The notes beneath the pieces were generated by a model. That model searched no databases. It was given only the letters and a program-made list of their open reading frames with translations, and had not been told where the DNA came from. The position numbers were made by a program, and so were the translations under genes. Of a stretch of 45,445 nucleotides of DNA, positions 4,267 to 9,425 are shown piece after piece. This DNA comes from a virus. Each line of letters begins with the position of its first letter. Position 1 is the stretch's first letter. The stretch lies in IMG/VR virus record IMGVR_UViG_3300034063_000357, positions 1-45,445 of that record, one strand, 5' to 3'.

Positions 4267-4278
4267 AACCTTTTAGTA

Positions 4279-4350
4279 CACCCATCAGGATTCGAACCTG
4301 AGACCTACTGCTTAGAAGGCAGTCGCTACTATCCATCTGAGCTATGGGTG
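4279..4350 (-). tRNA. tRNA-Arg(UCU)
   Basis: The minus strand reads CACCCAT ... ATGGGTG (7-bp acceptor stem), a D-arm with AGCTCAGATGGATAGTAGC-type sequence, a 5-bp anticodon stem ACTGC/GCAGT closing the loop CTTCTAA (anticodon TCT) and a T-arm with TTCGAAT. All four arms pair well over 72 nt, and CCA is not encoded. It decodes AGA, the main arginine codon in most of the phage late genes, so it should help late translation in a host with fewer AGA-reading tRNAs. The base after the acceptor is T, unusual as an arginine discriminator. Identity is clear from the anticodon. Confidence 0.93.
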
Positions 4351-4363
4351 CAAATAAAGATAA

Positions 4364-4400
4364 AAAATAGTCAGGTAGTATATCGCCACCTGACTATTTT
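4364..4400 (-). repeat. Perfect hairpin built from the ends of the adjacent tRNA-like sequence
   Basis: Arms AAAATAGTCAGGT and ACCTGACTATTTT are perfect 13-bp complements. Read on the minus strand, the first arm plus loop (TAGTCAGGTGGCGA) is identical to the 5' end of the tRNA-like element at 4484-4554, and the second arm matches that element's 3' acceptor strand. So it is either a deletion copy of that element (acceptor and half D-arm joined to the acceptor 3' strand) or a bidirectional terminator that happens to reuse it. The flanking A and T runs would let it terminate. Confidence 0.6.
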
Positions 4401-4414
4401 ACCACTTATTCTCA

Positions 4415-4478
4415 TACCCTTTTATTTCGTGGTCAACCTGCTTATCTTTAAATACGAGTTTTTCAAGGGTACAGGTTG
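4415..4478 (-). other. Possible RNA pseudoknot
   Basis: Two perfect 7-bp pairings cross each other: TACCCTT (4415-4421) with AAGGGTA (4465-4471), and CAACCTG (4434-4440) with CAGGTTG (4472-4478). The two right-hand arms abut, so the helices could stack coaxially. No reading frame explains the segment. Whether it folds as RNA is inference; the pairing itself is visible. Confidence 0.4.
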
Positions 4479-4483
4479 TTAGT

Positions 4484-4554
4484 AGTCAGGACAAGATTCG
4501 AACTTGTATTTGTCACAATATTTTGTTTAGCGCTTACCATTTCGCCACCTGACT
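4484..4554 (-). tRNA. tRNA-like sequence with defective anticodon arm
   Basis: Minus strand: 7-bp acceptor AGTCAGG/CCTGACT, D-stem GCG/CGC around a loop with GG, and a perfect T-arm ACAAG-TTCGAAT-CTTGT. Between the D- and T-arms the sequence TAAACAAAATATTGTGAC gives no 5-bp stem with a 7-base loop; only ACAA/TTGT with a tetraloop pairs. So the amino-acid identity cannot be read. It may be a decayed tRNA gene or a tRNA mimic with the acceptor and T-arm kept. Confidence 0.6.
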
Positions 4555-7116: not shown

Positions 7117-7357
7117 AAGTCTGATTTTCTAAAGAGTTAAGTTCACATTCCTTTTTTAAATCTATTAATTCATTTAAAAAAACATTTAAACTTTCAAATG
7201 AGTTAAAAACTTTAGTGTTATTGGTACTAAATTTTTCATGCCAGTGGTATGTTACAGATAATACTTCATTAGTAACTCTGTTCATTTTAACATGAGTTGA
7301 AACATATCCTATTTCAACTTTTTCCCAACAGTTTGCTATTGATATTATATTTTCCAT
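7106..7357 (-). CDS. Hypothetical protein, 83 aa
   Basis: 83 residues (MENIISIANCWEKVEIGYVS ... KKECELNSLENQTYEG): beta-rich first half, helical second half. No domain recognised. It is the first gene left of the long gene-free block A and has the second copy of the 31-bp motif 43 bases upstream, which is the best promoter candidate for it. Confidence 0.68.
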   Translation of the reverse strand: MENIISIANCWEKVEIGYVSTHVKMNRVTNEVLSVTYHWHEKFSTNNTKVFNSFESLNVFLNELIDLKKECELNSLENQTYEG

Positions 7358-7399
7358 TGTATTTACATATTATTACAACTTGCCAGTTGCTTGTTAATT

Positions 7400-7430
7400 G
7401 TTATTCATCCACTAGAGTAGGATGATTCAC
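7400..7430 (-). promoter_or_regulatory. 31-bp intergenic motif, copy 2
   Basis: On the minus strand GTGAATCATCCTACTCTAG then TGGATGAATAAC. It matches copy 1 at 6803-6833 over most positions, and this copy can also form a TCATCC/GGATGA hairpin. It sits between gene-free block A and the 7106-7357 gene. Confidence 0.4.
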
Positions 7431-7573
7431 TGTGTTTTACACCTAAAACTTTGATAAAGGTTTAACAAACCTATAAAGTACTGCAGCACATTTTGTGTTA
7501 TTCTGCATTGTTCTTAAATCAAAGAAAAACTGGTGCCCTCAACAACTTGGGAAGTTATTAAGTTTTTTACCCC

Positions 7574-7680
7574 TCTGCACTCAGTTGTAATAACAGTGGT
7601 GCGGCTTAAAGATTCCGTTATACTGCTTTAACAGGTTTCTTAGTCCCTGTTTCACTATTACAACTGCTCACCCTTGGGAG
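7574..7680 (-). repeat. Paired RNA element, copy 1
   Basis: On the minus strand CCCAAGGGTGAGCAG runs into TTGTAATA, followed 63 bases later by TATTACAACTG then AGTGCAGAG. CAGTTGTAATA (7656-7666) pairs perfectly with TATTACAACTG (7582-7592), 11 bp. The loop holds its own hairpin AACAGG/CCTGTT. Confidence 0.55.
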
Positions 7681-7834
7681 CTGATTAATCAGTGTTCTCT
7701 ACATTCAATGATGAAAAGAATGATGGGAATTGAACCCATATTAATCAGGTGGTTTTACATCTTATCTATGCTCATGCATTATAACTCAATAAGAAGTCTT
7801 TATATCCACGTGAGAATGGTGCATTAATAATCTC

Positions 7835-7970
7835 TCTGCACTCAGTTGTAATATTAAAAGTCTTTAATTTTCTATCATTGTTAGAGACAATAACAGACTG
7901 AATGTTTTAGATTCTCTAAATCTTTCAGACTCACAACATACAATGTATTACAACTGTTCACCTTGCGGTT
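7835..7970 (-). repeat. Paired RNA element, copy 2
   Basis: The same arrangement as copy 1: CCGCAAGGTGAACAG into TTGTAATA, a 92-base loop of unrelated sequence, then TATTACAACTGAGTGCAGAG. The stem 7946-7956 with 7843-7853 is again 11 bp perfect. The edges are conserved while the loop differs, as expected for a repeated structural RNA module. Confidence 0.55.
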
Positions 7971-8060
7971 AGTGAAGAGAGAAAGATTGTTTTGCAAAAT
8001 TTACCCATCCACGATTTACAGAGGCTTTGGACTCTCAAGTATAAATACTTGGCTGTGTTA

Positions 8061-8096
8061 GTAAAAAGTAACAGAATGGACTTTGTTCTGTTACTT
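8061..8096 (-). terminator. Strong terminator after the 8134-8556 gene
   Basis: Arms AAGTAACAGAA and TTCTGTTACTT, perfect 11-bp stem, 9-base loop, followed on the minus strand by TTTTTAC. It lies 38 bases past the stop codon of the 140-residue gene and separates it from block A. Confidence 0.8.
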
Positions 8097-8133
8097 ATAC
8101 TTGCGAATTCTCGCTACATTTGATTGAATTACA

Positions 8134-8556
8134 TCATAAAGTAGTTTGAAATGAAGTTGGATTAGGTTCAACATGCATGTATTTAACCTTTGGAGGTCTT
8201 GTATATCCTCCTTGAGCGTACTCATCAGGCTTGAGATTATGTTCTCCAGCATTACGAGTATAGACACCTTCTAAATAGTAATCACAATAGTCCTTTTGTG
8301 AGCTATTCATAAGATGTATGAATTTCTTAGCATCTTTATCTCTGATAAGATAAAAATCTCTTGATTCACCATCTTCCTCATAAATAGGTTTAGATAAATC
8401 ATAGTTAGAAGTAATTCCCCAAAATGATACCATAATATATGGTGGTTCATCATTAGGAAATGTATTTTTATGGATAATTGTATATCCTTCTACTTTTTGT
8501 CCAAAATACGGAAATAACAAAAAGAGTTCTCTTAATTTGTTCATTGTTTTAGTCAT
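8134..8556 (-). CDS. Hypothetical protein, 140 aa, isolated between two gene-free blocks
   Basis: 140 residues (MTKTMNKLRELFLLFPYFGQ ... PNPTSFQTTL). A second in-frame Met at residue 5 is a possible start. The sequence has aromatic and acidic clusters, VSFWGITSNYDLSKPIYEED and YCDYYLEGVYTRNAGEH, and no signal peptide, membrane segment or known catalytic motif. It is the only convincing gene in a 2-kb interval; it has its own terminator, and block B forms its upstream leader region. The isolation suggests a link to the RNAs, for instance an RNA-binding partner, but that is only a guess. Confidence 0.72.
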   Translation of the reverse strand: MTKTMNKLRELFLLFPYFGQKVEGYTIIHKNTFPNDEPPYIMVSFWGITSNYDLSKPIYEEDGESRDFYLIRDKDAKKFIHLMNSSQKDYCDYYLEGVYTRNAGEHNLKPDEYAQGGYTRPPKVKYMHVEPNPTSFQTTL

Positions 8557-8791
8557 TCAGATTATCCTGCTAATAGACCACAGCAGTTGAGTTTGAGCTA
8601 CCATTTATTTATACTCTTTGGTAACCTTCAAGAGGTGTAGATTTTTTTCTATTCTTTATCCCATATAAGAAAAAATAACTACTAAAAAAGAATGTTGGCT
8701 GATTTAACAGCTTGTTGAGGACTCGCAATCTTTGGTATATCGCTTACAAGGTTAGTATTTTCCCCCTGTCAGGTGTTAGTTCTCATATAAA

Positions 8792-8845
8792 TGGGATTCA
8801 ACAGATTACCAGTCTGCATCATGTGGCTTAACACATATACTCCCA
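8792..8845 (-). other. tRNA-like fold with Thr(GGU)-type anticodon arm, no T-arm
   Basis: Minus strand: outer stem TGGGA/TCCCA, a D-arm-like hairpin ATGTG/CACAT, then GCAGA-CTGGTAA-TCTGT, a 5-bp stem (one G-U) with a 7-base loop having U33 and A37-A38 and anticodon GGU. There is no room for a T-arm. Could be a tRNA relic, a minimal tRNA mimic or chance. Confidence 0.35.
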
Positions 8846-9020
8846 AATGTTTATGGTTGGTCACAAACCATTAAGCATCTACCTCTGTGACTTTCTTGAG
8901 ATAGGATAAGCATTTTGCTTTTAAAGTTATGTAACTTCCACAACATATCAAGTTGCTTATAACTGCATGGTTTTTAAGTCTGCACTAACCCAAGATTACA
9001 CTCTTCTAAAGTGTTTGATA

Positions 9021-9066
9021 TTATGCTTAGTCCAATTAGGATTAGAGATTAGAAGTCTCTGCATAA
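9021..9066 (-). other. tRNA-like fold with Arg(UCU)-type anticodon arm, no D-arm
   Basis: Minus strand: outer stem TTATGC/GCATAA, directly followed by AGAGA-CTTCTAA-TCTCT (5-bp stem, loop identical to that of the real tRNA-Arg at 4279-4350), then AATCC-TAATT-GGACT (four pairs and one mismatch). It mimics an anticodon arm plus T-arm without a D-arm in 46 nt. Confidence 0.33.
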
Positions 9067-9398
9067 AATCTTGTAGTAGCCCCACATGCTTGTCAAGGTT
9101 TATCAACCTTAAAGAAAAAACTAGTATTATTTTCAGCCGTTTAACTAGTATAAGCTGTTGCACATTTGGTATTTCTACCTACAATGAATTGTGCGATACA
9201 TTGATTTTAACATCATCAATCTGAGAACTATCGTTTGTTCAAGTTAACTCAGTTTTTGCTATATACTTAATTAAGACACAACAAGAGATATAGCTTATCT
9301 TGGAGTGAATTAGCAGATGGGTTGATAATCAACCACTTACAACAAATCCTGCAAGAACTTTGAAGTCCTTACAGGATAGTTGGAGTGATCTGGTGAGC

Positions 9399-9425
9399 AA
9401 AAAAGGAAGCACTTATAGTGCTTCC
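9399..9425 (-). terminator. Terminator overlapping the stop codon of the 9413-9673 gene
   Basis: Minus strand GGAAGCAC-TATAA-GTGCTTCC followed by TTTTTT. The 8-bp GC-rich stem includes the stop codon of the gene. A textbook intrinsic terminator. Confidence 0.88.

Follow-up and report, generated by a model that had tools for sequence, protein, structure and literature searches.

A phage RNA family with a twister-like core and exchangeable stem interiors in a gene-free block of a crAss-like phage: probable self-cleaving cassettes

The twister ribozyme is defined by the helices P1, P2 and P4, at least ten strongly conserved nucleotides in L1 and L4 and two pseudoknots, T1 and T2, with P0, P3 and P5 being optional (PMC5408937). 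Cleavage takes place at a U|A step in L1, assisted by the A that follows the cut and by a G located at the foot of P2, and P5 has been reported in 1% of twisters (PMC6154101). An earlier search for new twister permutations gave no promising candidates, and the job of phage self-cleaving RNAs is still unknown (PMC10085705). Regulation of cleavage by natural extra twister domains has been described as uninvestigated (PMC5052635), and the text of the paper on HDV-like theta ribozymes mentions neither twister nor hatchet (PMC10879173).

We analysed a 45,445-base IMG/VR virus entry (the window), which carries two paired stems on its minus strand. The window terminase is about 35% identical to those of Crassvirales (34-36% over >90% of its length), and the window was thus assigned to a divergent crAss-like phage, as the sequence-only reading had suggested. 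In the 3' stem, CAGTTGTAATA (7656-7666) pairs with TATTACAACTG (7582-7592), while in the 5' stem the same arms pair at 7946-7956 and 7843-7853, giving 11 bp in each case, with 63 and 92 nt between the arms, respectively. The flanks are CTCCCAAGGGTGAGCAG / CCGCAAGGTGAACAG on one side and CTGAGTGCAGAG on the other, and stems, loops and flanks were all confirmed as that reading had described them. The 3' parts of the two stems form a 20-nt exact direct repeat, for which our own arithmetic gives a chance expectation of ~1e-6 per 1.9 kb, and the 5' parts form a 17-nt repeat (94%). The block had also been called gene-free, which was borne out by the absence of any ORF of >=50 aa on either strand between 7357 and 8091. 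The signals said to border it fared less well, as promoter-like matches were not above chance (5 found, 3.3 expected), and where the strong terminator is concerned, inspection by eye shows a stem-loop with T's after it at ~8058-8098 that is missing from the scan output.

The block is a tandem of separate modules, not one large RNA, and the modules are seen singly and in other orders in other contigs. The two stems, previously taken as copies of the same element, represent the P5 helix in two RNA elements that are related but not equivalent, the 3' stem belonging to class 2 and the 5' stem to class 3. Two further modules, a twister match at 8001-8064 and motif B at 7431-7570, had been missed. 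The features are as follows, from upstream to downstream on the minus strand.

8965-9116 (-): hatchet ribozyme (RF02678), full length, 81.7 bits against a cut-off of 51, upstream of a 140-aa ORF
8001-8064 (-): canonical type-P1 twister, full length, 49.4 bits, E 1.8e-9, below the Rfam cut-off of 67.2
7831-7983 (-): class-3 element, holding the 5' stem; about ten relatives have such a shape
7972-7982 / 7831-7841 (-): fused P1/P2 helix of the class-3 element
7946-7956 / 7843-7853 (-): P5 of the class-3 element, 92-nt interior
7567-7830 (-): class-2 element, holding the 3' stem; its twister-like core is complete and L4 carries a large insert
7827-7830 (-): P1 5' strand UUAU, partner GUAA at 7567-7570 with one G-U pair, read from sequence
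Between 7826 and 7825 (-): predicted cut of the class-2 element
7824-7826 (-): UAA of L1, predicted cleavage site U|AA
7819-7823 (-): P2 5' strand UGCAC, partner GUGCA at 7576-7580
7810-7814 (-): P4 5' strand CUCAC, partner GUGAG at 7667-7671
7749-7809 (-): L4 insert, hairpin 1, GUGG-AUAUAAAG-ACUUCUUA ... UAAGAUGU-AAAA-CCAC, internal loop nearly invariant
7681-7748 (-): L4 insert, hairpin 2, CUGAUUAAU / AUUAAUCAG, tRNA-T-arm-like sequence in the loop
7672-7680 (-): L4 CUCCCAAGG, CCC 7676-7678 pairing with GGG 7571-7573 as pseudoknot T1
7582-7666 (-): P5, arms 7656-7666 / 7582-7592, variable 63-nt interior
7571-7575 (-): GAGGG of L1, first G the counterpart of the twister catalytic guanine
7431-7570 (-): motif B, a hairpin around CUUCCCAAG, then GGCACCAGUUU...CUUUGAU[variable]AUCAAAG...UUUUAGGUGUAAAACACA

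More than 200 relatives were found in uncultured phage contigs. A search with the 15-mer CAACTGAGTGCAGAG gave at least 119 viral stretches, most of which show, upstream, both the complementary arm (30-180 nt away) and a hairpin whose loop is UUCCCAAGG, and two more patterns, one leaving P2 free and the other P5, gave at least 120 viral stretches each. When the P5-free pattern was run on 257 Gb of bacterial and archaeal genomes, a single stretch (L255) was returned, which is without P4 and P2' and was set aside as a chance match. Neither class 1 nor class 2 gave a match in GenBank phages. Within the collections searched the family is restricted to uncultured phage contigs, with roughly one class-1 element per 113-125 kb record.

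The common form, class 1, has the order P1 - UAA - UGCAC (P2) - CAUU or CAUAA - 5-bp P4 - UUCCCAAGG - P4' - P5, and its 3' half reads CAGUUGUAAU[variable]AUUACAACUG (P5) - A - GUGCA (P2') - GAGGG - P1'. Covariation in this class was overwhelming: of the 27 pairs, 23 show changes in both partners across 40 diverse sequences, and the score was 0.571, whereas shuffles scored 0.197 and slid versions no more than 0.137. All 10 P5 pairs that were counted covary, each of the five P4 pairs has relatives in which both partners differ, and the same holds for three of the five P2 pairs, with variants such as UGUAC/GUACA, UGCGU/ACGCA, UGUGU/ACACA and UGUAU/AUACA. P1 is weak but present, with 62% of cells paired and with 75/73/68% at the three pairs next to L1, compared with 64/49/47% after shuffling. 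The pseudoknot T1, CCC (L4) with GGG (L1), becomes CAC-GUG in all seven class-1 elements that carry UUCACAAGG. Since the collection script demanded pairing in P2 and P4, the test was repeated on unfiltered matches to the bare pattern (n=112), of which 109 had exactly five P4 pairs and 105 had GTGCAGAGGG within 260 nt. RNAalifold alone recovers P2, P4 and P5, and the minimum-energy fold of the minimal form in L244, a GC-rich phage in which P5 is a bare CCGC/GCGG hairpin, has the same three helices as drawn. Covariation in homologues from uncultured phage contigs thus demonstrates the secondary structure and pseudoknot of the family, and it upholds the earlier suggestion that constant edges and variable interiors mark a structured phage RNA.

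The known RNA closest to the catalytic-looking form is the twister ribozyme (RF03160 for type P1, RF02684 for type P5). Both share the succession P1-UAA-P2, a P4 with a CCCAAG loop, GAGGG and T1, and the family has equivalents of twister's cleavage-site A and of its guanine at the foot of P2. UAA is present in 65 of 67 class-1 and 56 of 60 class-2 elements collected by the first and fourth search patterns, neither of which demanded it. In contrast to twister, the family is without P3 and has an extra stem between P4 and P2', which by our own reading occupies the P5 position; its L4 ends in AAGG where twister has AAGC, class 2 has a large insert in L4, and the canonical L2 (GCC / UAAA) is replaced by CAUU and a single A. 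T2 (L2-L4) cannot be shown because the candidate nucleotides, C and GG, never vary in class 1. The Rfam twister-P1 and twister-P5 models gave no match at E<=10 to class 1 in ten records, and we therefore call the family twister-like and do not claim Rfam membership.

The class-2 element begins at 7830, ~150 nt upstream of its repeat. Its core lies in two parts (7810-7830 and 7567-7680), between which an insert of 129 nt separates the P4 5' strand from CUCCCAAGG, so that a conserved two-hairpin domain sits inside the pseudoknot loop. This plan is common to 44 elements, and the class-2 pattern was found in 54 viral stretches. P4 covaries across the insert (CTCAC/GTGAG, CTATC/GATAG, CCTAC/GTAGG, CTACA/TGTAG, CCTGA/TCAGG, CCCAT/ATGGG), hairpin 1 changes from GUGG/CCAC to GUAG/CUAC in relatives, and the arms of hairpin 2 pair across the class-2 set around a loop that differs. 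In the minimum-energy fold of 7567-7830 both insert hairpins and P5 form as predicted. It is conceivable, if quite unlikely, that class-2 elements are natural allosteric twister ribozymes in which the insert loop is a ligand aptamer and the P5 domains are further inputs. Were this so, the nearly invariant loop GUGG-AUAURAAG-ACUUC / AAGAUGU-RAAA-CCAC would be a sensor of a phage- or host-derived ligand that would switch the cutting of the phage transcript, and the exchangeable P5 domains would add inputs of their own.

In class 3, UAA lies in the junction and is absent from L1, a GCAA-type tetraloop replaces CCCAAG, and the P5 side is kept. P1 covariation of class 3 in a re-pairing test on relatives was not significant. 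Lacking L1 and L4, the element is not expected to be catalytic, and the copy at 7831-7983 is probably a stable, non-cutting relative.

Other RNAs surround the two elements, with the twister and the hatchet upstream and motif B downstream. The twister at 8001-8064 surfaced with permissive Rfam settings, and its pseudoknot pair CCC/GGG reads CCA/UGG, a compensatory change; a twister stands beside a class-1 element in L077 in the same arrangement. The hatchet recurs in L320, the closest relative found. Just downstream of the hatchet, noncoding sequence at 8708-8989 (-) is 87.5% conserved over ~300 nt with L320 (5392-5728) while the surroundings diverge; its core pattern was found in two viral contigs only (L320 and L324) and its fold z-score is -1.5. 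Motif B is very conserved across 31 loci (L121-L124, L296-L323), including four human-gut Crassvirales, has a variable interior of its own and often lies ~40 nt before an ATG. Its 2-nt long-range pair covaries (CA/UG, CG/CG, UG/CA, UC/GA), and it gave no match to Rfam. Its CCCAAG loop resembles that of twister, but no UAA/P2/GAGGG frame fits convincingly, and motif B was therefore kept as a separate conserved RNA. A candidate tRNA at GGGTTCAATTCCC (~7723-7739) was rejected, being T-arm-like but lying in the class-2 hairpin loop that differs in relatives. Elsewhere on the same strand of the window, 4277-4554 holds a tRNA-Arg(tct) together with a weaker, tRNA-like second gene whose anticodon arm is unusual, and L222, a phage record with class-1 and class-2 elements, has a tmRNA match and a tRNA at 7798-8346.

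The elements are intergenic and co-directional with the ORFs, and the next ATG most commonly follows P2' by 40-70 nt, although downstream ORFs are not always close. The genes that follow encode varied small proteins and, in five loci, the DUF2828/DUF7788 family. In the latter (L149, L152, L181, L051 and L239) the gene immediately after a class-1 element codes for a protein of 424-487 aa that has a CDVSGSM (vWA-like) motif and may be linked to RNA. These features favour a general role in transcript processing or at the 5' end over control of one gene.

Taken together, we consider it likely that each stem is the P5 helix of a different member of a phage-specific modular RNA family built on a twister-ribozyme core, whose members serve as shuffled, self-cutting 5'-UTR cassettes. 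The covariation of P1, P2, P4, P5 and T1, the retained UAA, the canonical twister that adjoins a family member in both the window and L077, the hatchet upstream, the phage-only distribution, the next ATG mostly 40-70 nt downstream and the recurring interiors all speak for this, and against it are the failure of the Rfam models on class 1, the missing canonical L2, the invariant T2 candidates, the weak P1 and the ORFs that are not always close. Complete members such as 7567-7830 would cleave themselves at the U|AA step on their 5' edge. Where one lies 40-70 nt ahead of an ORF, the polycistronic phage transcript would be severed between small genes, and the mRNA downstream of the cut would start with a 5'-OH and a knotted, structured end. 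In the window, cuts by the hatchet, the twister and the class-2 element would release minus-strand pieces of ~1,050 and ~235 nt plus the remainder.

The family could instead be non-catalytic, forming in the 5' UTR a three-way junction plus pseudoknot, twister-descended or merely similar, which protects the mRNA from decay or tunes translation. The P5 side is found in class 3 even though the catalytic parts are missing there, elements often stand just before ORFs, and L2 is unlike that of canonical twister. However, UAA and GAGGG occupy the exact twister places and are nearly invariant though unpaired, which a stabiliser need not keep, and P1 pairs outside them, so that we regard this reading as rather unlikely.

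Exchange of interiors bears on a second alternative. Among 215 P5 interiors, 83 have homologues at other loci, frequently attached to another type of core, as between L002 (class 1) and L011 (class 2) or L033 (class 1) and L101 (class 3), and one interior is common to L172 (class 1), L320 (class 2) and L098 (class 3). GNRA-capped hairpins are enriched in the interiors (17 found, 2.4 expected). One conserved ligand domain was considered and rejected, as 170 non-homologous interiors have no common motif and only mild structure (mean z -0.87). L320 shares 190 nt, 100% identical, with window 7400-7589; the shared block starts inside the 3' arm of the stem and runs through motif B, and the upstream elements differ. 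This starting point and the exchanged interiors indicate that the conserved arms mark recombination joints. The inverted repeats might accordingly be DNA sites for a phage enzyme, with RNA structure secondary, given the constant 11-bp arms, the exchanged interiors and the identical L320 block beginning at an arm. This we hold to be very unlikely, since the compensatory changes in P4, P2 and the pseudoknot are what a folded strand, RNA in the main, would produce, the arms of the relatives L244, L233 and L047 differ considerably, and shuffling can be a by-product of shared sequence. Under the preferred reading of twister-like cassettes, the conserved stems would act as sequence anchors for recombinational shuffling. 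One large ornate RNA of the GOLLD/ROOL kind, as first proposed for this long, gene-free, structured phage block, is barely credible, since neither GOLLD, ROOL nor group I matched in Rfam (at gathering scores or E<=5 over 7300-9400) and other contigs carry the modules one at a time or in another order.

T4-type phages have mobile regulatory stem-loop cassettes, which are intergenic, are shared among small-gene modules and are linked to shuffling; those cassettes consist of promoters and simple stem-loops, whereas here the core is ribozyme-like. The hatchet (RF02678) is likewise a self-cleaving class, placed upstream in the same transcript direction, but has a different fold and no sequence relation to the stems. 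No description of such elements was found in the literature searched, which mostly excluded subscription papers, and no natural twister-like group with constant P5 stems, exchanged interiors and an L4 insert was found in Rfam, GenBank phages or that literature. The family is thus a large natural twister-like group that current models miss, from phages absent from the annotated collection searched, and it suggests a job for phage self-cleaving RNAs in the processing and shuffling of small-gene transcripts. The HDV-like theta ribozymes (PMC10879173) are also self-cleaving RNAs of gut phages, but differ in fold and have a tRNA-linked role. Artificial twister-based riboswitches (PMC5052635) resemble the family in carrying extra domains at P5 of an mRNA twister; those domains are designed, whereas here the extra domains, at P5 and in one class also in L4, are natural, and a response to ligand is hypothetical.
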